The notes beneath the pieces were generated by a model that worked only from the letters and a program-made list of their open reading frames with translations, was not told the DNA's origin and did not search any database. The position numbers and the translations under genes were made by a program. From Acidobacteriaceae bacterium (GTDB lineage Bacteria > Acidobacteriota > Terriglobia > Bryobacterales > Bryobacteraceae), in NCBI GenBank assembly GCA_019245255.1, contig JAFARV010000614.1:1-55881 (forward strand): a stretch of DNA of 55,881 nt. The letters run 5' to 3'. How positions within the stretch are numbered: position 1 is the first letter of the stretch; each line of letters starts with the position of its first letter. This document shows, one piece after another, positions 33,992 through 53,316 of this stretch.

Positions 33992-36900
33992 CTACCAGTA
34001 TCGGTAAATGGATCCCGATGCAGTTATTCCCCATATTGTTGTGCCTGAACCGATCGTTATTTGGCTTAGCAATCCTGGTATCTGCACCCACTGTTGTGAC
34101 TGCGCATCGAAATTATAAATGTTGCCGTTGGCGTCGATTGCCGAGGCGGCCCCATCGAAGGCCGCCGCTACACTGGCAAATTGCTGCGAGCCGGCTTGCC
34201 AAGAGTAAGCAGTAACGTTCCAATGAAACACATTGCCAGCAGCATCGAGAGCCCATACGTTGTTATTTGAGCCCGCAATTACTTGAGTAAAATGTCCCGG
34301 TAGTAAGTTCCATGTCTGGGCCTGAGAATTCAACCGGTAAACCGATCCACCGGAGTTTATACCCCAGACAGAACCGTCAGCGCCGACAGAAAGCTGCGTT
34401 AGCAACCCTGGAATGTTGTCCCACTTTTGGGTCACAGCGTTGAACCGATAGATATACCCGCCCCGATTTATACCCCATACCGATCCATCTCCTCCGACAG
34501 AGAGCTGTGTTAGCAACCCTGGAATGTAGTCCCAGTTCTGAGTAGCACTATTAAACCTATAAATATACCCGCCTGCATTGATTCCCCACACATTTCCGTC
34601 GGTTCCGACGGCAAGCTGCGAAAGCAGCCCAGGCATCTGCCGCCAATTCCCTGTGAGCGGATTGAAGTAGTAAATCTGATTTCCGCTTGCCAGACCCCAG
34701 ACATTGCCGTCGGATGCCGCAACCACCTGATGTAGAAGGCCAGGAATTTGATGGAAAGTATGAGCTGTCTGCTCCCAGACATCGAAGATGTAGATCTGGC
34801 CAGCCGCATCAAGACCCCACATCGATCCGTCCTCGATTGCAGAAATGTGTTTCAGTGCACCTGTAACTTGCACCCATCCTTGTGTTTGCTCATCAAACTT
34901 AAAAATCCCGCCCGAAGCATCCAAAGCCCAAACGCTGTCTGCAGATCCAACGCTAACAGTCGCCATATTTCCCTGAATTGATTCCCAATTCTGAATTGAG
35001 CGACTAAAATGATATACGTGCCCAGCGGGATTAATACCCCACACGTCTCCGTCCGCGCCAACAGCAAGAGTCGACAACCAGCCTGGAACCTGCTCAAAAC
35101 GTTGGAGGCCGACATTAAATCGATAAATCTGGCCGGCTAAATTAATGCCCCAGACGGCGCCGTCAAACCCGACAGCGATCTGACTGAGAAGACCCTGAAT
35201 CCACGACCAAGATTGAGCGCTCCGGTCAAAGTGGTAAATGGAGCCGTTATTCAGTCCCCAGGTGTCTCCATCCGCGCCGAGTGCAATATCAGTGAGAACA
35301 CCGGGTATATTGTCCCATTTTTGACTGGACGAATTGAATCGGTAAATGCTACCTGAGAACCCCAAGCCCCAAACAGAACCATCATTACCAGCTACAACCT
35401 TCGAAAGCCACCCCGGAATGTTCCGCCACGTTTGTGATTGCAAATCAAATGTGTAAATACTATTTCCACTAGTGATTCCCCAGATATTGGCAGACCCTGC
35501 TGAAACTGCGGCAAGATTACCAGGAACATACTGTCCCGCGCCTAACCCTGACAGACTTACTATTACGGCGCCCGTCATAGAACTGGTTGCTATGGTTAAT
35601 GATGCCGTGCGTAATCCAGACGTTAAGGGGCGGAATGAAATTGTGATCTGACATGCCAGTCCGGGTAAAAGGGCGGAAGTGCAGCCAGACGCCACGCTAA
35701 AATCGGACGCATTTGCTCCATTCAGAGTAATACTGATGATTTCCAGCGTGGTAGTTCCGCTATTGGAGAGTGTAAGGGTATCCAAGCTTGTAGCGGTGGG
35801 CATGGTTGGTGGGAATGTTACTGCGGCGGTATCAATGGAGGCGGATCCTGAGGGTATTGCGACTCCGCTTAATCCCACCATCTGCGGCGAACTCGCCAAC
35901 GCATCTGTAATTGCAATCGCTGCCGACTGGCTTCCCAGCGCAGTGGGGGCAAAGGATACCGACACGGTACAACTGCTCCGCGCCGCAACCGTCCCGCATG
36001 TATTGCCGGTGATCTGAAACGCAGTTGCGTTTGCGCCCGTCAGCCAGATGCTTGAAATGTTCAAGGTAGCTGATCCGGTATTCGTTATCGTCAATGTCTG
36101 CGCGGCGCTCGTACTTCCAACCGCTTGCGATGCAAAGGTCAATGCCGACGGGCTGATCTGTATCTGCGGAACCGGCCCCGACACACCTGACCCGCTGAGA
36201 CTGATCGCCTGGCTCCCTGCGTTGGTACTGAATGCAAGGGTGCCGGTTGTTGCTCCCGCCGCGCCGGGCACTGACTCGATCGGGAGCACGCAACTACCGC
36301 CGGCAGCGACCACCGAAGTAGCAGTGCAAGCAAGCGAATTCGACGGGTCTTCGCGGAACCCGGCCGGAACATTCAATGCAGAAAAGTTGAGCGGCTTGTT
36401 CCCGATGTTGAAGACCGTTTGCGATTGAGGCGCACTGAAGAGACCGGCAGTCACCGGGTTGAACGTCATTGCCTGGGCGCCAAATGTCACCTCACGAATC
36501 AGGTTGTTCCCGGTATCCGTAATGAAGATGTGTCCTGCGCCGTCGAGCCCAAGATTATTTGGTGCGTTTAGCTCCGCGAGCAACGGCGATCCGCCATCGC
36601 CGGCAAGGCCAGCCGTGCCGTTTCCGGCTATCGTTATGATCGCGCCGGTTGCGGCCGAAACCTCACGAACCGCATTGCTGTGCAGACCCGAATCGGCAAT
36701 GTACACGTTGCCTGCCGCATCGACCTTTACGCCAACAGGGCTCTCAAGCGAAGCCTGGGTCGCCAGTCCGCCGTCACCGGAATATCCGGCATTACCGTTT
36801 CCGGCGAAGGGAACCGTTACACCCGGCGCTGACAGCACAACTGAGCGGATAGCATGGTGGCCGGTATCGGCGATATACAGAACATTGCCGCCGGGATCGA

Positions 36901-37804
36901 GTGCGATGCCGCGTGGACTCGCTAAGCTGCCGTCGGCACCCGCAACGGTCGAGATGTTGCCGCTCGTATCTACTTTGCGAATCAGACCATTGCCTGTGTC
37001 AGCAATAAACACGTTCCCGAGGCCGTCTACCGCCACATCGCTCGGTGCGGAGAGGGACCCGCTTGTCGCCGGCCCACCGTCGCCGACGCTGCCGCTTGAT
37101 GGATGGCCGCCACCCGCAACAACCGCCCCCCTCGCGGTAAACGCGTTGATCTCGACAACAACGTTGTTCTGCGCATCCGCGACATAGATATTTCCAGCAC
37201 CATCGAGGGCCAGGCCGGTAGGCGCGGCCAAGGTGACGCCAGTCATGGAAACCGTGCTGATGAAACCGCCGCTGACGAGTCGTATGGCCTCATGCACCGT
37301 ATCCGACACGAACAGGTTCCCGGCCGGATCCACCGCGATGCCTTCCGGATCCCAGAGCCCGTTATTCGTCCCGGGAACGGTGGCGATGGTGCCCGGATAG
37401 ATCGCAATCTCAGGGCCCAGGCCGAGGCCGGACAGCAATGCGGTCGCGACAACCGTACCAGTAGTGTTCTTAACGATCAGTGCAGCTTTGCGAAAACCGG
37501 GTAATTGGGGCGAAAACGTTACGTGAACAGAACAGGAGGTTGGCTGCTGGCAAACGGAGGATCCGATTGCGAAATCGCCGGAGTAGTTGATTGAAAACGT
37601 TGGGTCTGCGGATAAGCCGGGAATCGAAATAGCGATATCCATTGCCCCGGACCCTCCGACCTGGACCGGCGAGCCGAAGTTTTGAGGTGGCAGGACCGTC
37701 AGAGCACCCGCTGACGACGCAACCAGCGTCAAACAGGCAAGTAATCGTAACCGCGAGCAGCCGCTTGCGACTTTGAATCTGTTCTTGAGTGCGCACACGA
37801 ACAC
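33992..37804 (-). CDS. Secreted 1270-aa NHL beta-propeller / Ig-like (ASPM-SPD-2-Hydin-type) / tectonin-repeat protein
   Basis: NHL-type GNLFVSDTVHEAIRLVS and NVYIADSGLHSNAVREV repeats; SALTFASQAVGSTSAAQTLTITNTGSATLNISSIWLTG; about 13 WGI..G.IYRFN..TQ.WD.IPGLL tectonin repeats. Confidence 0.88.
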   Translation of the reverse strand: MFVCALKNRFKVASGCSRLRLLACLTLVASSAGALTVLPPQNFGSPVQVGGSGAMDIAISIPGLSADPTFSINYSGDFAIGSSVCQQPTSCSVHVTFSPQLPGFRKAALIVKNTTGTVVATALLSGLGLGPEIAIYPGTIATVPGTNNGLWDPEGIAVDPAGNLFVSDTVHEAIRLVSGGFISTVSMTGVTLAAPTGLALDGAGNIYVADAQNNVVVEINAFTARGAVVAGGGHPSSGSVGDGGPATSGSLSAPSDVAVDGLGNVFIADTGNGLIRKVDTSGNISTVAGADGSLASPRGIALDPGGNVLYIADTGHHAIRSVVLSAPGVTVPFAGNGNAGYSGDGGLATQASLESPVGVKVDAAGNVYIADSGLHSNAVREVSAATGAIITIAGNGTAGLAGDGGSPLLAELNAPNNLGLDGAGHIFITDTGNNLIREVTFGAQAMTFNPVTAGLFSAPQSQTVFNIGNKPLNFSALNVPAGFREDPSNSLACTATSVVAAGGSCVLPIESVPGAAGATTGTLAFSTNAGSQAISLSGSGVSGPVPQIQISPSALTFASQAVGSTSAAQTLTITNTGSATLNISSIWLTGANATAFQITGNTCGTVAARSSCTVSVSFAPTALGSQSAAIAITDALASSPQMVGLSGVAIPSGSASIDTAAVTFPPTMPTATSLDTLTLSNSGTTTLEIISITLNGANASDFSVASGCTSALLPGLACQITISFRPLTSGLRTASLTIATSSMTGAVIVSLSGLGAGQYVPGNLAAVSAGSANIWGITSGNSIYTFDLQSQTWRNIPGWLSKVVAGNDGSVWGLGFSGSIYRFNSSSQKWDNIPGVLTDIALGADGDTWGLNNGSIYHFDRSAQSWSWIQGLLSQIAVGFDGAVWGINLAGQIYRFNVGLQRFEQVPGWLSTLAVGADGDVWGINPAGHVYHFSRSIQNWESIQGNMATVSVGSADSVWALDASGGIFKFDEQTQGWVQVTGALKHISAIEDGSMWGLDAAGQIYIFDVWEQTAHTFHQIPGLLHQVVAASDGNVWGLASGNQIYYFNPLTGNWRQMPGLLSQLAVGTDGNVWGINAGGYIYRFNSATQNWDYIPGLLTQLSVGGDGSVWGINRGGYIYRFNAVTQKWDNIPGLLTQLSVGADGSVWGINSGGSVYRLNSQAQTWNLLPGHFTQVIAGSNNNVWALDAAGNVFHWNVTAYSWQAGSQQFASVAAAFDGAASAIDANGNIYNFDAQSQQWVQIPGLLSQITIGSGTTIWGITASGSIYRYW
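34380..34720 (-). repeat. 111-bp coding tandem repeat (37-aa tectonin unit)
   Basis: Equivalent GACAG/GACGG positions at 34385, 34496 and 34607 give an exact 111-nt period. Confidence 0.85.
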
Positions 37805-38957: not shown

Positions 38958-40529
38958 TTATCCTGCAACTGCGCTCTTCTCGCCGATACCAAGCTTCTTC
39001 ATTTTGTAGAGGAGCGCCTTGTAATCGATATTCAAGAGAGAAGCCGCCTGTTTGCGGTTCCAGAAACTAGAGTTCAGAGCCGCGATGATCGCTTCCGTTT
39101 CCGCCGCTCGGTGCTCATCACGCACCTTCGACAGGGCCGGCACCATGTCTGCACCCTGCATTACGTCAGGAATGGCAAGCGGGCGCGCCGGGCTCAAAAC
39201 GGTATCCGGTACGCGAACCGGAGCGATGTTGTCAGCTTCTATCGAACGGAACGGCGCCTCGCGTCTACTGATCGGCCTTACTTTGTCCGGCACCATATCC
39301 GGCCAGCTTTGTTCCGGCAGAACAACGGTGTTTGTCACTTGTGCGGCCGCTATCACGGCGTGGGTACCTTTGCGGGCGCGCTGCCGGATCTCTTCTGCCA
39401 GTGCGCCGGGGTTTCGCAGTACCAGATACTTCTGAACCACGTTCTCAAGCTCGCGAACATTACCCGGCCAAGTATGCTCCAAAAAGACCTGCTTCAACAT
39501 GCCTGGCATATCCAACGCCGGAGCGTCAGCGTTGGCATATTTGTTGATGAAGAATTCGGCGAGCGGCAAGATTTCATCGCGGCGTTCCCGCAGCGGTGGA
39601 ATCTGAATATCGATAATGTTCAATCGGTAATACAGATCCTCGCGAAAGCGCCCTTCTCGAATCGCCTTGTCGAAATCGCAGTGGGAAGCAGCCATGACCC
39701 GCACGTCCACTCGCGAGGTCTCTTTTGCGCCGAGCCGATGGAACTCCCGATCCTGAAGCACCTGCAGCAATTTTGCTTGGAGCTTGACATCCATGTCGCC
39801 GATTTCATCCAGCAAAATCGTGCCGCCCTTCGCCATCTCGAACTTTCCGGGCGTGCTCTTAAACGCACCCGTGAACGCGCCCTTTTCATACCCGAAAAGC
39901 TCACTCTCCACCAGTTCGGAGGGCAGGGCGGCACAGTTCAATTTCAGAAATGGCCGGCTTGCGCGCCGGGAACGCGCATGTAAACTGCGCGCAATCACCT
40001 CTTTCCCGACCCCTGTTTCACCGTGCAACAGCACAGGAACGTCGGAGGACCCGATGCGTTCGAGCAACGCAGTGATCCGTTGCGACCATGCTCCCGATAC
40101 GGCCAGCGGCCGCTCCGATGTCGATCCGTCTGCACTGCTGTTCTCAGCGGGTTTTAGCGGGAGCGCGATGTCGAGGGCCTTTTCAATTGCCCTCCTGAGC
40201 TCGTCATGCGCAATTGGCTTTGAGACAAAATCCTTGGCGCCCTCCGTCATTGCCGCTACGACATCTCTGGGTGTCGCCGCCGCTGACATCATCACCACCG
40301 GTACATCGGGCGTAAGCTCACGGATAGTCTTCAGCGTATCGATGCCATCTCTAACCGGCATGAACACGTCCAGAAGCAGCAAGGAGTATCGCGCCGGGTT
40401 CTCCCTTACCAGCGACACCACCTCCTCACCCGTCTGTGCACACTCCACGTGCAAACCATACACAGTAAGTGCCAGTTTGAGGTAATTTCTAATCTCGCAC
40501 TCATCTTCAGCAACCAACACGGTGTACAT
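38958..40529 (-). CDS. Sigma54-dependent NtrC-family response regulator
   Basis: Receiver; AAA+ GETGVGKEVIARSLH, intact GAFTGA; Fis-type HTH NRKQAASLLNIDYKALLYKMKKLGI. Confidence 0.95.
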   Translation of the reverse strand: MYTVLVAEDECEIRNYLKLALTVYGLHVECAQTGEEVVSLVRENPARYSLLLLDVFMPVRDGIDTLKTIRELTPDVPVVMMSAAATPRDVVAAMTEGAKDFVSKPIAHDELRRAIEKALDIALPLKPAENSSADGSTSERPLAVSGAWSQRITALLERIGSSDVPVLLHGETGVGKEVIARSLHARSRRASRPFLKLNCAALPSELVESELFGYEKGAFTGAFKSTPGKFEMAKGGTILLDEIGDMDVKLQAKLLQVLQDREFHRLGAKETSRVDVRVMAASHCDFDKAIREGRFREDLYYRLNIIDIQIPPLRERRDEILPLAEFFINKYANADAPALDMPGMLKQVFLEHTWPGNVRELENVVQKYLVLRNPGALAEEIRQRARKGTHAVIAAAQVTNTVVLPEQSWPDMVPDKVRPISRREAPFRSIEADNIAPVRVPDTVLSPARPLAIPDVMQGADMVPALSKVRDEHRAAETEAIIAALNSSFWNRKQAASLLNIDYKALLYKMKKLGIGEKSAVAG

Positions 40530-40557: not shown

Positions 40558-41775
40558 TTAATCCGCGGCTATGCCTGCCTGCGCCCGTGATGCGGCATCC
40601 ATGGGCCTCATCACCGAAAGCTGGAAAGGGAACACCATCGAAAAAGACGCGCCTCCCTCCTCGCGATTGTCAGCCCAAATAAATCCAGCGTGCGCGGCGA
40701 CGACCATTTTGCAAATAGCCAGTCCAAGGCCACCTCCGGATCGGTCCCGCCCGCCGGAATACGACGTATATTGTTCGAAAATGGCCGCCAGCAGATCGGG
40801 TTGAATCCCCGGTCCGTTGTCATGGATGTCAATGCGATAAGCGTTGCTGCTCCTGGTTCCAGGTCGGCTGTTCCGCACTCCAAATTCAGATGCGAAATCA
40901 CATGCGACACTATATCCACGGATGTCGATCGAGCCGCCTTTCGGCGTGAACTTGGAACAATTTTCCAAGACGTTCATCACTGCTTGCGTGATCTGTTCCG
41001 GGTCGAACCAAAACGGCTTCTCCGCCGCCGCAACGTTTACGGCAACGGTTTGGTCTTTATCCTGTAACAACGGGAATACTTCATAGACCGCTTGGTCGAC
41101 AGCATCCTCAATATCAGCCGCTGTCCAGTTCGGTTCCTTCCTGACGTGGCCGCGAATGATCAAGTCGAACATGCCGGTTGTCTGACGCGACAGCCGGCGG
41201 GTACTCGACTGCATTCTGTGAAACAACTCTCTTTGCTCATTGGATACAGGCCCGAGCTGGCCGTCCGCAAGCAGACTACAATAGCCGTGCAGCGCCGTCA
41301 GAGGCGCTCTCAAATCGTGCAGTGCGCGCGCAAGAAAATTCGTTCGCTGGTGATCATATTCCTGCAGTTTCAAATTTGCCGCCAACGCGTACTGAACCAG
41401 CGCATCGCGGTCCGATCTGAGCTGATCCGCTTCATGCGCACGCTCCCGTAAGGACAGGGTTCTCGTTGCCAACTCCAGAAAAGCGCGCACGGTATAAGAC
41501 TTCAGCGGCTTCACCAGAGCACACCGTCGGGCCAGTAAATCGGCGCTCATCGACGATAGCGTTCGTTCATTCACCAGCAGAATGAGCTGCTGCTCTTCAC
41601 GATCGGCCATAAGCACCGAAGGCAGCTCGCTCGCAAGATCAAGATCCCAGATACAGACATCTGCACTCAGCGCCTGGTCCGTCCAGCGGCTTTCGCACAC
41701 AACGTCCGGAGCAACTTCCTGCATGGTGGCAAGAACCTGAGAGTCGGATGTGAACAGATAAATTGTCAATCCCAT
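40558..41775 (-). CDS. Sensor histidine kinase with receiver-like N-terminus
   Basis: H-box FLARALHDLRAPLTALHGYCSLLADG; N-box; GPGIQPDLLAAIFEQY; GGGLGLAICKMVV. Confidence 0.92.
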   Translation of the reverse strand: MGLTIYLFTSDSQVLATMQEVAPDVVCESRWTDQALSADVCIWDLDLASELPSVLMADREEQQLILLVNERTLSSMSADLLARRCALVKPLKSYTVRAFLELATRTLSLRERAHEADQLRSDRDALVQYALAANLKLQEYDHQRTNFLARALHDLRAPLTALHGYCSLLADGQLGPVSNEQRELFHRMQSSTRRLSRQTTGMFDLIIRGHVRKEPNWTAADIEDAVDQAVYEVFPLLQDKDQTVAVNVAAAEKPFWFDPEQITQAVMNVLENCSKFTPKGGSIDIRGYSVACDFASEFGVRNSRPGTRSSNAYRIDIHDNGPGIQPDLLAAIFEQYTSYSGGRDRSGGGLGLAICKMVVAAHAGFIWADNREEGGASFSMVFPFQLSVMRPMDAASRAQAGIAAD

Positions 41776-42110: not shown

Positions 42111-42587
42111 ATGTATCTGGCCGCCTATGCGATAGCGAACTTCTCAAAATCCCAAAGTTTTGGGTCTTGTGCGGACGGTGGTGATTTGACTATAAATCGT
42201 AGATCTTGCAGGCGTTTCAACGTTTCCTTGCCGATGCTTCTCTTCACGGCTGAGTCCACCATGCCGATCGTGGCCGAAACGCGTGATATTGGCATGGATG
42301 GCTTTTTCTGTCTCGTCGCCGACGCCCTTCCGGTCGGGAAAAGGATCCGCTGCCTGATTCTGCTTAACGATATCGCCGACTCGGACCCTTCCTTTGGTAT
42401 GTGCATAGAGGCTGAAGCACACGTAGCACGTGTTGCGATCCGGGGCACGGGCAACGCCTCCATTGGGCTCGGCTGCACTATGGCCAGGTTCCACATCGTT
42501 CCAGCCGCAGCCTGGTTCCAAAACGTTCCTCACCCTATTGGACATGGCAGTCGGATTACCCCGGGGGTACGCTCATTCGAGCAGTAG
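42111..42587 (+). CDS. PilZ-domain protein
   Basis: NRRSCRRFNVSLPMLLF...TRDIGMDGFFCLVADALPVGKRIRCLILL. Confidence 0.75.
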   Translation: MYLAAYAIANFSKSQSFGSCADGGDLTINRRSCRRFNVSLPMLLFTAESTMPIVAETRDIGMDGFFCLVADALPVGKRIRCLILLNDIADSDPSFGMCIEAEAHVARVAIRGTGNASIGLGCTMARFHIVPAAAWFQNVPHPIGHGSRITPGVRSFEQ

Positions 42588-42650: not shown

Positions 42651-43277
42651 TTAAGAAGTTCGCAGACAGCGCTGCATTTCCGGGATGACTAGCTTTGCAA
42701 ATGCTTCCAACTGTTTTTCCGATACTTCGTTAGTTCCGGATATTATCCGGACTATGGAGCCGGCTGTCCTGCCTTTTGTAAGTGCGTCATATCCGAGCAG
42801 AACTTTGGCGACATATTCATTCGCCACAATGCGGTCTGAAGACTGATACCAATAGAGTGTGGTCGCGTGTTCAGACCCCTTCTGGATCTCGTACCTGTTG
42901 ATTGGAACGATCGCGCTGTTAAGCGGTAGTTTTACTGTCTCGTGCTGAGAGATATCCCACCCCGCGCCGGGCAGACAATGTTTCGGCGAATGCATGCTCT
43001 CTCCGGCCCTCTGGACAGCGTAGTAGGCAATGAACAAACTGAGCGTTGTCCGGCCGTCACTGTACTCACGCGATATGTACGATGATGCTTTCAATTGCTT
43101 CTCTGCCCCCGCGCTCAGTGGCAACTGAGCCACGACATGCCACGGACCCAACTGCGCTGGAATTTGCTCGAGCGATCGGTGCAGGCTCTCAACAGGACGC
43201 CGGTCGCTCCATGTGCCTAAGCCCAAAGCAGCGCTCAACATACCGATGGCTACTATGTATGTGCCTGTTTTACGCAT
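42651..43277 (-). CDS. epsI: EpsI family exosortase-associated protein
   Basis: SLEQIPAQLGPWHVVAQLPLSAGAEKQLKASSYISREYSDGRTTLSLFIAYYAVQRAGESMHSPKHCLPGAGWDI. Confidence 0.85.
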   Translation of the reverse strand: MRKTGTYIVAIGMLSAALGLGTWSDRRPVESLHRSLEQIPAQLGPWHVVAQLPLSAGAEKQLKASSYISREYSDGRTTLSLFIAYYAVQRAGESMHSPKHCLPGAGWDISQHETVKLPLNSAIVPINRYEIQKGSEHATTLYWYQSSDRIVANEYVAKVLLGYDALTKGRTAGSIVRIISGTNEVSEKQLEAFAKLVIPEMQRCLRTS

Positions 43278-43341: not shown

Positions 43342-43357
43342 TGCAATTCCTGGCCCA
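43342..43357 (-). promoter_or_regulatory. Candidate sigma54 promoter (minus strand TGGGCCAGGAATTGCA)
   Basis: TGG-N8-TTGCA with correct -24/-12 spacing, facing epsI (start 43277). Confidence 0.65.
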
Positions 43358-43396
43358 GAGACAAAGCTGCAAATAGATGTGCTCAAGGCAGTCGAA

Positions 43397-43412
43397 TGGC
43401 CCTGTGATTGCA
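43397..43412 (+). promoter_or_regulatory. Candidate sigma54 promoter (TGGCCCTGTGATTGCA)
   Basis: TGG-N8-TTGCA with correct -24/-12 spacing, facing wzz (GTG start 43457). Confidence 0.7.
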
Positions 43413-43456
43413 CTCCTTTGTATTCGCAACAAAATGTTGACAGGAGTCTGCACCTG

Positions 43457-45130
43457 GTGAACACTGCCCAAAAACGTCCCGATACGGGAACCCAACCGAT
43501 CTCGCCGTTATCGATCATCCGAATGCTGTGGAAACACAAACTTCTGATGGTCGCCGTTGCAGGCGCCGGCTCTGCGATCGCAACGCTTGTTGTCGCGAGC
43601 CTACCGGCAATTTACAAATCTGAAGCCCTGGTTCTCGTCGACTCTCAGAAGATACCCGAAAAATTTGTCAGCTCGACGGTAAGTAGTGGCGTAGCGGACC
43701 GGCTCGCCGCAATCAGTCAGGGAATTATGAGCACGACACGCCTGCTCAAGATTATTCAGGACCTCGACTTATATAAGGATGAGCGGAAAGGGAAGGCTCA
43801 GGAAGAAATCGTCGAACAGATGCGCCGGGACATCAGCGTAACTGTTCAGAAGGATAACTGGGCAACAGGCAAACCAGTTGCATTCAAAGTCGGTTATCAA
43901 GGCAAAAATCGAACCTTGGTAGCGGAAGTCGCCAATCAGCTGGCGAATCTGTACATTGAGGAGAATCTGCAAACCCGCGAAGTCGAGGCCAGCGGCACTT
44001 CGGAGTTTATTGACACTCAGTTGCAAGAAGCTAAGCGGCAGCTCGATGAGCAAGAGGCGCGGGTGGCGAAGTTTAAACAAGAGCACAACGGCTCATTGCC
44101 CGAACAGGAAAATCCTCTTTTGTCAACCCTCGATGCCCTGCGCGTTCAACTGCAAGGCGTCCAGGATGCAACAAACCGCTTACAGCAGAACAAGCTCATG
44201 CTCGAAACGTCTCTCGCAACCGAACAATCTGAGGAAGCGAACCTCGAGCGCAGCCAGCAGATGAAGGTCGCCAGTTCTGGGGCTGTTCTTTCCGGCGTAG
44301 GGCCAGCAGCCGAAGATAAAACCCTTACAGCCATGCAGGAACAGCTCCAAGATCTGGAAAGCCGCTACACCCCGGATTATCCCGATGTAATTACCTTAAA
44401 AGCTCAGATTGCGGCGCGTTTGCAAACCGATAAGGAAGCCGCACGGCGTTTCGAAGCGGAACGGAGTCCCAAAACGAACCATGCCGCAGAGATGAATTCC
44501 AAGCCGTCCGGCGTTGCGGTTCCCGTGCCCCACGAAGTCGTCGAAGAGCGCGGGAAGGTTGCGATGCTTGAAGCACAACTAGCGTCCGTCAAACACGATA
44601 TTGAGTTTCAACAAGCCGAACGCCAGCGTGTTGTGAACCAAATCAGTGCCATCCAAGGCAACGTCGACCGGCTGCCAATTGTCGAACAGGAAATGGCTGG
44701 CCTGACACGCGACTATGAGACCTCGAAGGCCAATTACAAATCCCTTCTCGACAAACAGATCGCCGCGCAAATGTCTAGCGACATGGAACGCCGGCAGAAA
44801 TCCGAGCGTTTCGAGATTATTGATCCGGCGCGCGTACCGGAAAAGCCCTTTCAGCCAAATCGCTCATTGTTGCTGGCCGTGGGCGTAATCCTATCGCTTG
44901 GAATCGCGGCTGCAGCCGCATTGGGGCTCGAGCTTCGGCGGCCGGTGTTGTTGGGCGAATGGGAGCTGCCGGAAAACGTCACCATCCTCGGCCGCGTCCC
45001 GGTCATATCCATTACAGGCACAAATAATCACCCTCTTCGGGCTCTGATGCGAGCCGCCGCGGTTGGGTCCGTGACAGCGGCGTTTGTCATCGCAGCCGGT
45101 TGCTACTACTACGTCAAATTGAGGTCCTAG
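43457..45130 (+). CDS. Polysaccharide chain-length determinant (Wzz/GNVR family)
   Basis: ISPLSIIRMLWKHKLLMVAVAGAGSAIATLVVASLP.., coiled coil, C-terminal TM; GTG with upstream AGGAG; ORF-track ATG 43379 lies upstream of the predicted promoter. Confidence 0.85.
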   Translation: MNTAQKRPDTGTQPISPLSIIRMLWKHKLLMVAVAGAGSAIATLVVASLPAIYKSEALVLVDSQKIPEKFVSSTVSSGVADRLAAISQGIMSTTRLLKIIQDLDLYKDERKGKAQEEIVEQMRRDISVTVQKDNWATGKPVAFKVGYQGKNRTLVAEVANQLANLYIEENLQTREVEASGTSEFIDTQLQEAKRQLDEQEARVAKFKQEHNGSLPEQENPLLSTLDALRVQLQGVQDATNRLQQNKLMLETSLATEQSEEANLERSQQMKVASSGAVLSGVGPAAEDKTLTAMQEQLQDLESRYTPDYPDVITLKAQIAARLQTDKEAARRFEAERSPKTNHAAEMNSKPSGVAVPVPHEVVEERGKVAMLEAQLASVKHDIEFQQAERQRVVNQISAIQGNVDRLPIVEQEMAGLTRDYETSKANYKSLLDKQIAAQMSSDMERRQKSERFEIIDPARVPEKPFQPNRSLLLAVGVILSLGIAAAAALGLELRRPVLLGEWELPENVTILGRVPVISITGTNNHPLRALMRAAAVGSVTAAFVIAAGCYYYVKLRS

Positions 45131-45133
45131 GAT

Positions 45134-46126
45134 ATGTACCACCAATTTTTTGACCTCGAGAAAAACCCCTTTTCGATCACGCCCGATCCCAATTTTTTGT
45201 TCCTCACGGCTGCTCATCGCGAAGCCTTGGCGGCGCTGTTGTTTGCGATTACGTGCCGAAAAGGCTTTCTTGTACTGACCGGAGATGCGGGAACCGGCAA
45301 GACGACATTGCTTCGCACAATATTGCGCCGCGTATCGCCCGACCGTACCCTGTTCAGCCTGGTGGTGCATCCGACGCTCAGCACATCGGAATTTCTCGAG
45401 TACACGCTGCTTGACTTTGGCCTCAAAGATATTCCCGCAAGTAAAGCGCAGCGCTTGAATCTGTTCCATCAGTTTCTGGTGCGATCTGCCGCCGAAGGAA
45501 AAACTCCCGTACTGGTTGTTGACGAGGCGCATAAGCTCTCGCCTGAACTGCTCGAGGAGATCCGGCTTTTGACCAACGCCGAAACGGCAGAGCAGAAGCT
45601 ACTGCAAATCATCCTGGCCGGTCAGAACGAACTGACGGCCGTGCTGGCGCGCGATGATATGCGGCAACTGAGGCAACGGATTGCAGTGCGCGTCAGTATC
45701 AGTCCCCTAAATAGAAACGATCTGGCGGAGTACATGCAAACCAGGTGGCTGCGGGCCGGATCTTCTCAGCCTCTTCCCTTCACCTCCGATGCCATGGAAG
45801 CGATCGCGTATTATTCTGCGGGCATTCCGCGCGTCATCAATGCCATCTCCGATGCAGCGCTTATCAGCGCCTTTGCCACGGAATCGCGTACGATAGCTGC
45901 CGCGCAGATCCATGCCGCGGCAAAAGACTTGCAACTGACACCAAACCATAACGTCGTCGATGGACGGCCTTCTCCTGCTACAAGCAGCGCATTGCGGCCA
46001 CCGGCGCCATCGCTCACGCCCCCCGTGGCAGTGAACGATCACCCGTTTAAGACCTTGGAGCGGTATGCGCCAAGGCAAGATAAAAGGCCCGGCTTTATGC
46101 GCTGGCTCGCAGGCGCAATCGGATAA
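45134..46126 (+). CDS. ExeA-like AAA ATPase (XrtA/PEP-CTERM system-associated type)
   Basis: MYHQFFDLEKNPFSITPDPNFLFLTAAHREALAALLFAI..VLTGDAGTGKTTLLRTIL. Confidence 0.9.
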   Translation: MYHQFFDLEKNPFSITPDPNFLFLTAAHREALAALLFAITCRKGFLVLTGDAGTGKTTLLRTILRRVSPDRTLFSLVVHPTLSTSEFLEYTLLDFGLKDIPASKAQRLNLFHQFLVRSAAEGKTPVLVVDEAHKLSPELLEEIRLLTNAETAEQKLLQIILAGQNELTAVLARDDMRQLRQRIAVRVSISPLNRNDLAEYMQTRWLRAGSSQPLPFTSDAMEAIAYYSAGIPRVINAISDAALISAFATESRTIAAAQIHAAAKDLQLTPNHNVVDGRPSPATSSALRPPAPSLTPPVAVNDHPFKTLERYAPRQDKRPGFMRWLAGAIG

Positions 46127-46129
46127 CAT

Positions 46130-47008
46130 ATGAGCAATTTTTTTGAATCCTTACAAAAAGCAGAACTGATCGCACCAGACGAGCTGGCATTTCCTCTGCT
46201 TAACAGCACTCCCTGGCCGGTACCGAGTGCAGCTGAGACAGAATCCACTGAAGACTTCTGCCTTCCTGGCGCGCCCGTTACTGCATTTCGAACCGCTAAG
46301 CTGCGGCTTTCAGCAGCATCGCCTGTCTTCCCGTTCGAAGCCGACAACGCCGCTGCGGACCAGTACCGAATGATCAGAACAAAAATTCTGCATCATCATT
46401 TGAAGCCTCGTGCGATTGTCGTTTCAAGCGGCGGCCCGGGTGACGGCAAAACGATCACGTCAATCAATATCGCGAGTTCCTTTGCTCTAAAGCAGGACTT
46501 GAGAATTGCTCTCATCGACGGCGATATGAGGCGGCCGCAGATTGCAGCCACGCTTGGCCTCTCCGATACGCCTGGGCTTTCCGACGTACTCAGCGGCCAA
46601 GTCTCTTTTGAAGACGCCGCCGTCTGCCCTGAAGAAGCGCCCAACCTCTGCATTCTTCCCGCGGGCACTCACGGCTCGACGCACGCCGAGCTGCTCGAGT
46701 CCGAGCGCTGGCACACGCTGGTCGAAAAATTGCGCCGGACGTTCGACTACATCGTGTTTGACGCCCCTCCCATTGCCACCCTCGCCGATTACGAGCTGCT
46801 GCAACTTGCCGCCGATGGCGTCGTTGTCGTGGCACGCCCGGATCACAGCGAACGGAAAAGCTGCCTGAAGGCAATTGAAGCCGTCCCGAAAGAAAAGCTG
46901 ATGGGCGTCGTATTGAATTGCGTTGAAGACTGGCTATTTTGGCGCAAGACAGCCTACGGCTATTACTCCCGGCCGCAACAATCCTCAAACCGGCGTTTGA
47001 AAGCGTAG
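46130..47008 (+). CDS. CpsD/CapB-family tyrosine-protein kinase
   Basis: AIVVSSGGPGDGKTITSINIASSFALKQDLRIALIDGDMRRPQIAATLGL; C-terminal YGYYSRPQ. Confidence 0.9.
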   Translation: MSNFFESLQKAELIAPDELAFPLLNSTPWPVPSAAETESTEDFCLPGAPVTAFRTAKLRLSAASPVFPFEADNAAADQYRMIRTKILHHHLKPRAIVVSSGGPGDGKTITSINIASSFALKQDLRIALIDGDMRRPQIAATLGLSDTPGLSDVLSGQVSFEDAAVCPEEAPNLCILPAGTHGSTHAELLESERWHTLVEKLRRTFDYIVFDAPPIATLADYELLQLAADGVVVVARPDHSERKSCLKAIEAVPKEKLMGVVLNCVEDWLFWRKTAYGYYSRPQQSSNRRLKA

Positions 47009-47282: not shown

Positions 47283-49196
47283 ATGTGCGGTATTGCGGGC
47301 TACGTAACACCAGAAAATTCCATGGTCAGTCGCTCCTGGCTGCGTGCGATGTGTGATCGGATGTTTCATCGCGGGCCGGATGGCTACGGTGAATTCTTCG
47401 ATGATCACGTCGCATTAGGGCATCGCCGGCTCAGCATCATCGACCTGAGTGGAGGAGCACAACCGCTCGGCAATGAGGACGGGTCTATTCAGATTGTCTT
47501 CAACGGTGAGATTTACAACTACGTCGAATTGCAGCGCGATCTCGCGCGGCGCGGCCACCAATTTCGCACCAAGAGCGACACCGAAGTCATCGTCCACCTT
47601 TACGAAGAAGTCGGTGAGCGTGTGCCCGAATACCTCAACGGCATGTTCGCGTTCGCCATTTGGGATGCCGGAAAACGAGAGCTGTTTCTCGCCCGCGACC
47701 GCTTCGGCGAAAAGCCGCTTTACTATTCGGCCGATATCCCCGGCACCCGGTTTTGCTTTGCCTCGGAGCTGAAGGCGCTCACCGCCTTACCGGGCTTCGA
47801 CCCGAAGCTCAACGAAAGAGCTGTCGCCGATTTCCTCAGCCTTTCCTATGTACCGGACCCCCATACAATCTACGCCCATGTACACAAGCTGCCGCCCGGG
47901 CATAGCCTGATGCTCCGCAAACGGGCGCTCACCGTGCGCCGGTATTGGAAGCTGAACTTCGAGGCCGCGCATTCGGGTGCAGATCCGGTCGAAGAGGTCC
48001 GCAGTCTCGCCGCCGATTCCGTTCAACGACGCATGATCAGCGACGTCCCGCTCGGCGCCTTCCTCAGCGGGGGAGTCGATTCGAGCGCGGTTGTCGCCAT
48101 GATGACCGGTAGCGCCTCGCACCAGGTCAAAACATTTTCCATCGGATTCACAAACCGCGACTTCGACGAGCTCGAATATGCGCGGCTTATCGTCGAGCGC
48201 TACCGCACCGAACACTACGAAGAAGTCGTCTCGCCGTCGATTCACGACACGCTGGGCACACTGAGCGAGCACTTCGATGAGCCGTTTGGCGATGCATCCG
48301 CCATTCCGATGCTCTATCTGTCGCGCATGACGCGCCGGCACGTGACCGTCGCGCTCTCGGGAGATGGAGCCGACGAGATTTTCGGTGGCTATCGCAGATA
48401 TTACTTTGGAGTCCTCGAGGAGCGTTTGCGCCAGCGCTTCCCCGAGTGGTTCCGCAAATCCGTGATCAAGGTCGGTGGGAAGTATTACCCAAAATTCGAC
48501 TATTTGCCGCAAATGTTTCGTGCGAAGACACTGCTGACGAATCTTGCGGCGGATATCGGCAATGCCTATTTCACATCCATGTCAACCTTCCGGGACGGCG
48601 GGCTACGGCGTGTACTCTCACCGCCGTTGCGCAGCAGCTTAAACAATTACTGTCCACGCCGGAGTTTTGCCGAGCGGTTTCAGGCCGTTTCTCACCTCTC
48701 GCCGCTGGCTCAAATGCAGGCCGTGGATATCGAGACCTATCTCCCCGGCGACATCCTGGTGAAAACGGATCGCACGACCATGGCTTATTCACTCGAGAGC
48801 CGGCCACCGTGGCTCGACCACCGTCTGGCGGAACTCGCGTGCCGTCTGCCCATGTCCGTTCACTTGCACGGGAGAGAACGCAAGCATCTCTTTAAGCGCG
48901 CCATGACGCCGCTGCTTCCGGAACCGATTCTAACCAGACCCAAGATGGGTTTCAGCGTACCGCTCGCCGAGTGGTTCCGCACCAGTTTGAAACCGGTCTA
49001 TCGCGAGGCCGTACTCCAGCCAGACATGGAGGAATATCTGTCGCTCACCGAGGCGCGCCGCCTATGGGTGCAGCACCAGACCGGGCGCCATGACCATAGC
49101 CGCAAGTTGTGGAACCTGCTGATGCTCGGCCTGTGGCACGCTCGCCAGCGCAGACGATCGTTCGAACCGGTGGTTGAAGAGGCAGTAGCGGTTTAG
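47283..49196 (+). CDS. asnB: Asparagine synthase (glutamine-hydrolysing), XrtA-locus amidotransferase type
   Basis: MCGIAGYVTPENS; RGPDGYGEF; FLSGGVDSSAVVAMM. Confidence 0.93.
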   Translation: MCGIAGYVTPENSMVSRSWLRAMCDRMFHRGPDGYGEFFDDHVALGHRRLSIIDLSGGAQPLGNEDGSIQIVFNGEIYNYVELQRDLARRGHQFRTKSDTEVIVHLYEEVGERVPEYLNGMFAFAIWDAGKRELFLARDRFGEKPLYYSADIPGTRFCFASELKALTALPGFDPKLNERAVADFLSLSYVPDPHTIYAHVHKLPPGHSLMLRKRALTVRRYWKLNFEAAHSGADPVEEVRSLAADSVQRRMISDVPLGAFLSGGVDSSAVVAMMTGSASHQVKTFSIGFTNRDFDELEYARLIVERYRTEHYEEVVSPSIHDTLGTLSEHFDEPFGDASAIPMLYLSRMTRRHVTVALSGDGADEIFGGYRRYYFGVLEERLRQRFPEWFRKSVIKVGGKYYPKFDYLPQMFRAKTLLTNLAADIGNAYFTSMSTFRDGGLRRVLSPPLRSSLNNYCPRRSFAERFQAVSHLSPLAQMQAVDIETYLPGDILVKTDRTTMAYSLESRPPWLDHRLAELACRLPMSVHLHGRERKHLFKRAMTPLLPEPILTRPKMGFSVPLAEWFRTSLKPVYREAVLQPDMEEYLSLTEARRLWVQHQTGRHDHSRKLWNLLMLGLWHARQRRRSFEPVVEEAVAV

Positions 49197-49199
49197 AAC

Positions 49200-50981
49200 A
49201 TGGGGCAACTGTTCATCATTCAAGGAGCGCAAGAATGCGCTGTCCATGAGCTCCGCGAAAAAGCGCGGCGTGCGTTTCAATCGCTAACCGGTCTCTCACC
49301 AAGCTCGGAATTGAGTAGCGCAACGCACGCGGTCCTGAAATTTCCTAAGCTGAACGGGGACCGTTCCAAGATTGTTCAAGATGCCGCGACGCAGTCGTGG
49401 GCGTGCGGCGCGGGGACGTTTTTCACACCCCAGCGCTACGGTGATGCTGCGTTACCGCTACTGCTCGAGCAGCGGCCATCGGAGGAAACCCTTGACGAAT
49501 GGAACGGCATTTTCGCACTCGCAGCATTCGCCGGGCCGCAACGTGAACTCAGTATCATCACCGATCGCCTGGGAAGCCTTCACGTTTATAAAACGACGCT
49601 TCGCGGATGCGTGCTGATTTCGACCTCCTCGCTGATCCTCGCTGCCCTCACGCAACCCGATTGGGACCCGATCGCGTGCCGCGAGTTTCTCGCTACCGGT
49701 ACAGTCTTTGAACAGCGCAGCTTATTCCGAGGCATCGAAAAGCTGCCTCCAGCGACGATCGTTCGTTTCCGCGACGGCCTGGAGGTTTCGCGTACCCGAT
49801 ATTGGGGCCTTCACTTGATCCCCTATCGCGATGTGGACTCGCGAACCTGCGTCCATGAACTCGCGGATGCGTTGACCGGCAGTATTCAGACAATCGCGCG
49901 TCATCTGCCCCAGCCCGTGATGGACTTGACCGGCGGCTTCGACTCCAGGGCGCTTGCCGGCTCGATGCTCAGAGCCGGTCTCAATTTCGAGACCGTAGTG
50001 AATGGCCAGGCCACAGACGGCGACGTGCTTATCGCCGGACGAATTGCGCGCGAGCGGCAGTTGCAACACCGGCATTACGAACGTGGAACGCAAACGCCAC
50101 AGCAGTGGCTTGAACAGGCGAAGTCTGCGCTGCCGTTGTGTGATGGCGAAATTGATCTGCTGCTCTATGCTCCGACAATGGACGTCCAACGCGGGCTGTC
50201 TGCGGAGTTCGACGTCACGCTCAACGGGTCCAATGGGGAAATCTGCAAAGGCTATTGGTGGGAACTGCTGTTTCCGAACACCGGCCGCGATCGCTGTTTT
50301 GACCCGCACAAGGTCGCAGCGCAAAGGTTCGCCTATGCCGGCGATCCCGGATTGCTCGCCCATCACTTCGACCAGAACCTCACAGCGCACTTTGCAGAGA
50401 TACTTGCCCGGAACAACTCGGGTCTCGAGAATCATCCCAACACGGCGCAGATGGACAACATCTACCTCGGCGTGCGCATGCAGCGCTGGCAAGGGCGAAT
50501 TGCCAGTTCGACGGCGCGCATCTGGCCGTGCTTATCGCCTTTTATGTTTCGGGACGTCATGCACGTCGCGCTCTCGGCCCCCCCTCGCTTACGTGTCCGC
50601 AACCGGCTGACCCGGCGGCTGGTTGAGCATCTCGACCCTCATCTTTCCGCCATTCCGTTAGACGACGGAACTCCGGCCATGCCGCTGCGCTTGTCCACGG
50701 CGCATTATTTCTGGCCACTCGCAAAAAAGTACGCCACGAAGGCGATGCACAGAGCGTTCCAGCGCCGCGCCACCGTAACGCCCGGGAACAAGATCAGAGG
50801 TCTATGGCAGCTCGAAGAGATTCACCGCATTCTGCGGCCAGACAGCATGGAAACCGCCGGCCTCTACGAGCCCTCCAAGCTCAAAACCCTGCTCGCAGCA
50901 TCGCAACAGGAGTCTTTTTCGAGCGCGGCCCTCTTCGGCCGCGTGCTCACCCTCGAACTGGCCGCGAGGGCCGTCAAATGA
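49200..50981 (+). CDS. Asparagine synthase-related protein without N-terminal catalytic Cys
   Basis: 593 aa beginning MGQLFIIQ; PP-loop-like DLTGGFDSRALAG. Confidence 0.82.
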   Translation: MGQLFIIQGAQECAVHELREKARRAFQSLTGLSPSSELSSATHAVLKFPKLNGDRSKIVQDAATQSWACGAGTFFTPQRYGDAALPLLLEQRPSEETLDEWNGIFALAAFAGPQRELSIITDRLGSLHVYKTTLRGCVLISTSSLILAALTQPDWDPIACREFLATGTVFEQRSLFRGIEKLPPATIVRFRDGLEVSRTRYWGLHLIPYRDVDSRTCVHELADALTGSIQTIARHLPQPVMDLTGGFDSRALAGSMLRAGLNFETVVNGQATDGDVLIAGRIARERQLQHRHYERGTQTPQQWLEQAKSALPLCDGEIDLLLYAPTMDVQRGLSAEFDVTLNGSNGEICKGYWWELLFPNTGRDRCFDPHKVAAQRFAYAGDPGLLAHHFDQNLTAHFAEILARNNSGLENHPNTAQMDNIYLGVRMQRWQGRIASSTARIWPCLSPFMFRDVMHVALSAPPRLRVRNRLTRRLVEHLDPHLSAIPLDDGTPAMPLRLSTAHYFWPLAKKYATKAMHRAFQRRATVTPGNKIRGLWQLEEIHRILRPDSMETAGLYEPSKLKTLLAASQQESFSSAALFGRVLTLELAARAVK

Positions 50982-52204
50982 AATCAAGTCACCCGAAGGT
51001 GCTGTTCATTGCGAGCGCTTTTCCGCCTGTCGTCGGCGGATCGGCACATGTGTATGCGAGTCTATGCCACGAATTGGGGCCCGACGCGGCAGTACTGGCC
51101 GCTCGCAGGAGTTACGCCAACGGAGCCGAACTGCCCGGATGGATGGCCTGGGACGCGGAACAGCCGTTTCCGGTGTACCGTCTCGACTTCCTGCGTCCCC
51201 AGTATCGGCCGAGGCCCCGCACGATTGCACACGCCGCTTGTCGCTACTTCTTTGAAGACCGCGTGCTCGAGCGGGAAGTGATCCAGCAAGCTGCCGGAAT
51301 CGCGAGGAAGCACAAAATTAACCTGATCTGCCTCGGCGAGCTCTATTCGCTCCACAACATCGGTCGGCAGCTTCGTAAAGAGCTTCGCCTCCCCGTCATT
51401 CACTACATTCACGGCGAAGAGATCACTGCGGTGCCTCCCGCCCGCCGTTACGTGGCGGGCGCCTTCGCGGCTTTGAGAGAAGCGCAAGGCGTCATTGCAG
51501 TCAGCTCGTTCACACGCGATCAGATCGTTTCGCGTTGTCAACTTCCCGAGACCAACATACGCGTGATCACGAACGGCGTTGATATCACCCGGTTTCACCC
51601 GGGGCACAAAACCACCGCAATTCTCGATCGCCACGCTTTGCACGGCAAGAAGATTCTGCTGACAGTCGGCCGGCTCGAACGGCGCAAAGGCCAGGACACG
51701 ATGATTCAGGCGCTGCCACGCATCGTACACGAAATCCCGGACGCTGTTTACGTCGTTGTCGGTCAGGGCAGCCAACTGGAATTCCTGAAACAGGAAGCTG
51801 TCCGTTGCGGCGTTGCGGATCGCGTGATTTTCGCAACCAACGTACCAGCGGCCGAACTCGCCGATTACTACCGCACCTGCGATGTCTTTGCGATGCCTAA
51901 CCGCACCATGCCGGATGGCGATACGGAAGGATTCGGTCTGGTGTTTCTAGAGGCCGGCGCCTGTCGCAAACCGGTCATAGGCGGCAATGCCGGTGGCGTG
52001 CCCGATGCCGTATCTCACGGCGAAAACGGAGTGCTGGTAGACGGTGCGTCCGTCGCTTCGGTCGCAGATGCGTGTGTACGGCTGTTACGTGATTCCGAAT
52101 TGGCACGAGGGCTTGCCGAAGCGGGCCTGCGCCGCGCGCGTTCTTCCACCTGGCAGAATAAAGCCCAGGAATTCCGCCGGCTGTGCGCCGAGGTTGCCGC
52201 ATGA
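50978..52204 (+). CDS. Glycosyltransferase family 4
   Basis: KVLFIASAFPPVVGGSAHVYASL..RVITNGVDITRFHPG..VGRLERRKGQDTMIQALP..EGFGLVFLEAGACRKPVIGG; start moved to ATG 50978. Confidence 0.92.
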   Translation: MKSSHPKVLFIASAFPPVVGGSAHVYASLCHELGPDAAVLAARRSYANGAELPGWMAWDAEQPFPVYRLDFLRPQYRPRPRTIAHAACRYFFEDRVLEREVIQQAAGIARKHKINLICLGELYSLHNIGRQLRKELRLPVIHYIHGEEITAVPPARRYVAGAFAALREAQGVIAVSSFTRDQIVSRCQLPETNIRVITNGVDITRFHPGHKTTAILDRHALHGKKILLTVGRLERRKGQDTMIQALPRIVHEIPDAVYVVVGQGSQLEFLKQEAVRCGVADRVIFATNVPAAELADYYRTCDVFAMPNRTMPDGDTEGFGLVFLEAGACRKPVIGGNAGGVPDAVSHGENGVLVDGASVASVADACVRLLRDSELARGLAEAGLRRARSSTWQNKAQEFRRLCAEVAA

Positions 52205-53316
52205 GCCGGCCCGTTCCCATCCTTTACGTTCACTATGGCGACGAGTGGATCCGCGGCAGCGAGCGCTTGCTGCTCGATTTGCTGGCGCATATCGACCGCG
52301 ACCGCTTCGCGCCCGTCGTGTGGTGCAACGGGGAACAGATGGAAAATGCCGTACGGGAACTCGACCTTCCGGTTTATAGGAGCCGCTTCGATATCTTGCT
52401 AACCTCGATCCGGCCGAATCATCGCGTCGGCTGCTGGGCGCGGCAGATCCGCGAAGGCCTTCACATCGCCGCTCGGCACCGTATCCGGGTCATTCACTCA
52501 AACAGCGGGGGTCCGGTCCAGTGGATGCTGCCGGTTGCACGGTTGCGGCGGATACCGATTCTTGCGCACCTGCACGCTCCCTATCTGAAGCGCGACCGCT
52601 ACGCGTTCGGCATTCGCTTTGCTGACCGTGCGGTCGGCGTCTCGAAATATGTACTGCGCGGCTTACAGGCCGATGGCGTCAGCGGGAAGAAGCTCGCTGT
52701 TATCTATAACGGAATTGACACGGCACGGCTGAAGCCCGGCACGCCCGATGCTGACTTGCAGAAATTGCGTGCCTCGGGCAAGGTGATCGTCACATTCGCC
52801 GGCTCGCTCATTTATCGCAAGGGTGTTGATCTCGTGCTACGCGCGATTCAGAGCGTGCCGGAAGTCGAACTGGTCATTGCCGGAGATGGGCCGGACCGCG
52901 AACCACTCGAAAAATTGTCCGCTCAGTTGAACTTGAACAGGCGAGTGCATTTTCGCGGTTACTGTGCCGATCTGGGTTCGCTGTATCGGGCAACGGACAT
53001 CGCTGTTCACCCGGCTCGCAGCGAAGCCTTCGGCCTGGTGCTGGCCGAAGCCGGTCTCATGGGCATCCCTGTCATCGCTTCGCGAGTCGGTGGCATTCCA
53101 GAGGTGGTCAAGGACAGCGAAACAGGGCTTTTATGCGACCCCGAATCAATCGAATCCTTCTCGTCTGCGATCCGTCTGTTGGCCGGCGATGCAGCTCGCC
53201 GTCGCACGTTGGGAACCGCTGCTAAGCAATGGGTGACACAGCACTTCACAGTTCCCGCAATGACGTCCGGCTTCGAGCGCCTGTACGCAGAAATGGCCGG
53301 TACCTCTGTCTTATAA
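52201..53316 (+). CDS. Glycosyltransferase family 4
   Basis: VIYNGIDTARLKPG..FAGSLIYRKGVDLVLRAI..SEAFGLVLAEAGLMGIPVIASRVGGIPEVV; ATGA overlap with upstream gene. Confidence 0.92.
   Translation: MSRPVPILYVHYGDEWIRGSERLLLDLLAHIDRDRFAPVVWCNGEQMENAVRELDLPVYRSRFDILLTSIRPNHRVGCWARQIREGLHIAARHRIRVIHSNSGGPVQWMLPVARLRRIPILAHLHAPYLKRDRYAFGIRFADRAVGVSKYVLRGLQADGVSGKKLAVIYNGIDTARLKPGTPDADLQKLRASGKVIVTFAGSLIYRKGVDLVLRAIQSVPEVELVIAGDGPDREPLEKLSAQLNLNRRVHFRGYCADLGSLYRATDIAVHPARSEAFGLVLAEAGLMGIPVIASRVGGIPEVVKDSETGLLCDPESIESFSSAIRLLAGDAARRRTLGTAAKQWVTQHFTVPAMTSGFERLYAEMAGTSVL

Follow-up and report, generated by a model that had tools for sequence, protein, structure and literature searches.

In proteobacterial systems with PrsK/PrsR, the PEP-CTERM box is an activator motif that lies about 63 nt upstream of a sigma54 site, before PEP-CTERM genes (Haft et al. 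2006, PMC1569441). This box has been reported in Proteobacteria only, and the same paper held that exosortase systems had more regulators and DNA motifs yet to be discovered (PMC1569441). RpoN dependence has been described for pepA of Aquincola (PMC9850573), and in Desulfovibrio the sigma54 response regulator DVUA0057 acts over exopolysaccharide and PEP-CTERM genes (PMC3333781). Downstream sites, 40-70 bp away, are known for Desulfovibrio sigma54 activators (PMC4641369), and the site of FleQ, a sigma54 activator of Pseudomonas, can also be downstream of the promoter (Jyot et al. 2002 as cited in PMC10723142). Acidobacteriota are abundant soil bacteria whose regulation is little known. A literature search found no earlier description of sigma54 exopolysaccharide control in Acidobacteria/Acidobacteriota, although one may exist. 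Here we describe a candidate case of exosortase-system regulation in this phylum, in which a named clade of regulators would act on a single target operon that carries a 13-bp box.

Gene content of the locus

The stretch analyzed here (the window) is 55,881 nt long and comes from an assembly of 1041 contigs with a completeness of 78.7 percent; the named relatives are Bryobacterales and other Acidobacteriota. The plus strand carries a polysaccharide operon that begins with wzz, while epsI, a kinase gene and the gene for an NtrC-type regulator with GAFTGA follow one another on the minus strand, and a 179-bp spacer separates epsI from wzz (Table 1). The wzz product is a relative of the TIGR03007 XrtA chain-length determinant that falls just under the cut-off despite a full-length match, and the identity of EpsI passes TIGR02914 (110.6 bits versus a cut-off of 42.8). 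The preliminary description had Wzz start at GTG 43457, which has AGGAG in front of it and is the better start; the upstream start at 43379, which it called ATG, reads GTG.

Table 1. Features of the locus, numbered from the first letter of the window
Feature	Position	Strand	Remarks
Sigma54 -24/-12 element facing wzz	43397..43412	+	TGGCCCTGTGATTGCA; predicted start site about 43423
Sigma54-like match facing epsI	43342..43357	-	TGGGCCAGGAATTGCA; not conserved
Conserved palindrome, candidate regulator binding site	43427..43439	.	CAACAAAATGTTG, then AC to 43441; about +4 to +16
Shine-Dalgarno-like AGGAG for wzz GTG 43457	43442..43446	+	direct reading
wzz-type chain-length determinant, XrtA system	43457..45130	+	TIGR03007, 263.9 bits vs cut-off 278.85
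XrtA/PEP-CTERM-associated ATPase	45134..46126	+	TIGR03015, below cut-off
Tyrosine autokinase	46130..47008	+	TIGR03018 / TIGR01007
XrtA/PEP-CTERM amidotransferase-like protein	47283..49196	+	TIGR03108, 709.9 vs cut-off 816.9
Downstream operon genes: divergent amidotransferase-like protein, two GT4 glycosyltransferases	49200..53316	+	
epsI	42651..43277	-	TIGR02914, PF11984; ATG 43277, AAGGGGA upstream
Histidine kinase partner (HisKA, HATPase_c)	40558..41775	-	adjoins regulator in relatives too
NtrC-type response regulator (REC, sigma54 AAA+ with GAFTGA, Fis-type HTH), proposed wzz promoter activator	38958..40529	-	

Several neighboring genes deserve mention. Directly 3' of the canonical amidotransferase gene, 49200-50981 (+) encodes a divergent amidotransferase/asparagine-synthase-like product that scores under all cut-offs. 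Between epsI and the kinase gene lies a PilZ-like ORF (42111-42587, +; PF07238, 21.3 bits versus a cut-off of 22.5), which may tie the locus to c-di-GMP, and a PilZ protein encoded in the sister locus (L128:6736-7122) exceeds the cut-off. The 1270-aa product of 33992-37804 (-) has NHL repeats, choice-of-anchor D and tectonin domains. No exosortase was seen within the window, where epsI has no adjoining exosortase; the genome carries two exosortase genes (PF09721) elsewhere, on contigs C170 and C712 of G000, and several relatives have an exosortase-like gene ahead of epsI.

The Sigma54_DBD domain (PF04552) was found in 14 of 16 congeners and was not found in the source genome. A TIGR02395 search of this genome recovered an N-terminal piece of rpoN where a contig ends (G000:C254, L223), and direct reading of the fragment revealed Sigma54_AID and an lptB-like ABC gene before rpoN. 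The contig end cuts the gene, and the standard DNA-binding-domain model alone would have scored rpoN absent.

The predicted promoter facing wzz and the epsI-facing match

The sigma54 consensus used was TGGCACG-N4-TTGCW. A sequence check confirmed the positions and strands of both 16-mers named in the preliminary description, which are separated by 39 bp and face wzz and epsI, respectively. Both fit the sigma54 pattern, with GG and GC 10 nt apart in a sequence near the consensus, and the wzz-facing site scores 10 of 12. The motif TGG-N8-TTGCA was enriched neither in the window (3 matches versus 2.24 expected) nor genome-wide (127 versus 166 for the reversed control), so a lone match carries no meaning and the case rests on comparison. 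The chance of one correctly oriented match per strand in the spacer is ~1e-5, uncorrected for looking elsewhere.

For this comparison, the 200 bp before wzz were scanned for GG-N10-GC sites in 35 homologous loci from Bryobacteraceae and other Acidobacteriota. Sites in the wzz direction scoring at least 10 occurred in 13 of the 35 loci (shuffle mean 0.3, maximum 2) and sites scoring at least 8 in 25 (shuffle mean 6.7, maximum 13), counts that are not independent because the loci are related by descent, and whose effective numbers are smaller because the set includes near-duplicates (L129/L130/L135 and L147/L151) and two loci from one genome (L152 and L153). On the opposite strand of the same regions, no locus had a site scoring at least 10 and five had one scoring at least 8. 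Conserved at orthologous positions and above shuffles, the predicted sigma54 promoter facing wzz is well supported, as the preliminary description had proposed. It is very improbable that the sites fit a loose consensus by chance: the motif alone shows no enrichment, but the conserved sites before wzz and the scan for the composite motif described below speak against this reading, which for the wzz-facing site is already contradicted by the family-wide scan.

The two sites had also been proposed to form a divergent sigma54 pair through which one regulator switches wzz and epsI together. As a unit this pair was not borne out, because the epsI-facing site is conserved neither in the 35 loci, where reverse-direction sites are at or under background, nor in the closest syntenic relative (L061/L128), in which wzz, epsI, kinase and regulator stand in identical order. 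In that relative CGGTTGCTCAATTGCA is the sole epsI-facing candidate; it begins with C where the motif has T, and its distance from the epsI start is too short. For most relatives, the divergent neighbor of wzz is a gene other than epsI; epsI lies farther off in other loci, in some behind an exosortase-like gene. In favor of a true pair, the TGG-N8-TTGCA match on the epsI side is exact (for that strand of the spacer the chance is about 0.003) and would leave a plausible leader of 53 nt, and the palindrome described below would be near -100 of the epsI-facing promoter, a usual enhancer distance. However, roughly 5 percent of shuffled regions yield a score of 9, and overall we consider a true pair unlikely. 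The epsI arm is possible but unsupported, and the epsI-facing match, which is unconserved and in our reading a separate one, may have arisen by chance.

A palindrome near the predicted start site and its candidate regulator

The regulator has a receiver with the acceptor Asp, an AAA+ domain with GAFTGA and a Fis-type HTH, as expected of NtrC-type enhancer-binding proteins. Its orthologs form a group set apart by score from other NtrC-type proteins, with a near-invariant recognition helix, DYKALLYKMKKL. The preliminary description noted that PEP-CTERM/EPS loci often carry a PrsK/PrsR-like two-component system; the regulator resembles PrsR in domain architecture only, and as PrsR itself (TIGR02915) it was rejected, scoring 332.7 bits against the curated cut-off of 502.6. 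PrsK (TIGR02916) was not among the best matches listed for the kinase, in which no obvious membrane segment was apparent on reading and whose first 135 residues have no Pfam match.

Within its own family as sampled, the regulator clade is present in 11 of 11 genomes with a close wzz versus 2 of 25 without (p about 1e-7). A wzz sigma54 site scoring at least 8 was found at 20 of 24 loci in regulator-positive genomes versus 3 of 9 in genomes without the regulator (p = 0.01); one of those three loci, L129, carries the palindrome, and judging from sister loci its regulator would fall just past the contig end. This phylogenetic co-occurrence, together with synteny and the intact GAFTGA, supports the link from the regulator to the wzz promoter that the preliminary description had drawn, and the regulator likely controls this promoter.

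The most specific element present is a 13-bp box absent from the preliminary description, the palindrome CAACA-N3-TGTTG(AC); among 6- and 7-mers, words from its half-sites rank first for enrichment in the wzz upstream regions. A second enhancer word 5' of the sigma54 site did not stand out by word enrichment. When 237 family genomes were scanned for the composite of sigma54 site and palindrome, 12 matches were obtained, as compared to 0 for the reversed control and an expectation of about 0.2; every one of the 12 lies directly upstream of wzz. Most of them come from the locus set that supplied the pattern, and two (G208 and G229) from outside it; both of these are at wzz, with a regulator homolog 2.6 kb from the wzz box in G208 and a contig of only 5.4 kb in G229. 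The palindrome lies 13 to 23 nt from the -12 element, with its center near +9 to +19, a position that for an enhancer would be unusually near the start. As an RNA hairpin the palindrome is weak (-2.7 kcal/mol in isolation), and its arms are invariant among the matches, with no compensating changes, which favors a DNA site. Away from wzz, other exact palindromes followed by AC apparently lie within coding sequence, judging from their contexts, with one exception: an intergenic GCAACAAAATGTTGAC box (L208; G067:C299, about 2885) in a regulator-positive genome, with no recognisable EPS gene nearby, which is a possible second target.

From the sequence comparisons, we consider it probable on balance that the EPS operon is controlled through the wzz promoter by a sigma54 activator of its own, perhaps acting via the palindrome. 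The polysaccharide operon, from 43457 onward, would be transcribed off the promoter at 43397-43412, and the adjacent kinase would phosphorylate the regulator, the dedicated activator of this promoter. The regulator would most likely recognize CAACA-N3-TGTTG, just 3' of the predicted start site, as an enhancer or operator; bound there, it could keep the operon silent in its inactive state and, once phosphorylated, open the sigma54 complex. Here we infer the binding, the sign of the regulation, the signal and the start site.

The regulator plausibly binds the palindrome, but about half of the loci from regulator-positive genomes lack the box, many of them retaining the sigma54 site. The regulators of these palindrome-less loci mostly keep the recognition helix, and the palindrome may therefore belong to another protein. 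Presence of the palindrome alone does not differ significantly with presence of the regulator (11 of 24 versus 1 of 9 loci, p = 0.11), and in loci without an exact copy degenerate palindromes were not above shuffles, except in L147 and the regulator-negative L146. The wzz promoter could accordingly be sigma54-dependent with the regulator acting from an unrecognised or distant site and the palindrome serving as the operator of another protein, for example a repressor blocking early transcription. The +4 to +16 position is typical for a repressor, and the variable spacing to the -12 element, like the sigma54 sites kept without a palindrome, fits this arrangement. We nevertheless consider it rather unlikely: the composite motif is confined to wzz, the composite-carrying genomes checked have the regulator clade, save G064, whose regulator would lie past the contig end, and an unsystematic look noticed no second conserved regulator gene at the locus. 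In the preferred reading, with the regulator itself at the palindrome, its strictest form would be a one-operon Acidobacteriota system distinct from PrsK/PrsR, in which the regulator, via the single +4 to +16 palindrome of a single target, blocks the promoter in its inactive state and activates sigma54 polymerase upon phosphorylation; this we put forward tentatively, as a possibility.

Comparison with known systems

In having a site that can lie downstream of a sigma54 promoter, the proposed regulator resembles FleQ and the Desulfovibrio activators, and polysaccharide genes are likewise under FleQ control. The likeness drawn here is one of position, and unlike the 40-70 bp of Desulfovibrio, the Acidobacteriota box is only 13-23 nt from the -12 element. 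DVUA0057, likened here as a sigma54 response regulator of exopolysaccharide and PEP-CTERM genes, differs in that it has several PEP-CTERM gene targets and belongs to another phylum. A parallel in layout is the PEP-CTERM box with PrsK/PrsR: in both cases, a sigma54 promoter and a conserved activator motif, candidates here, occur at an exosortase-linked polysaccharide locus, and an NtrC-type response regulator adjoins its kinase. Unlike PrsK/PrsR, however, the regulator scores under the PrsR cut-off and the kinase lacks PrsK among the best matches listed. At wzz, a word count gave no enriched word upstream of the sigma54 site. While the proteobacterial box lies upstream of its sigma54 site and before PEP-CTERM genes, the candidate Acidobacteriota box lies downstream, and its target would be the polysaccharide operon itself.
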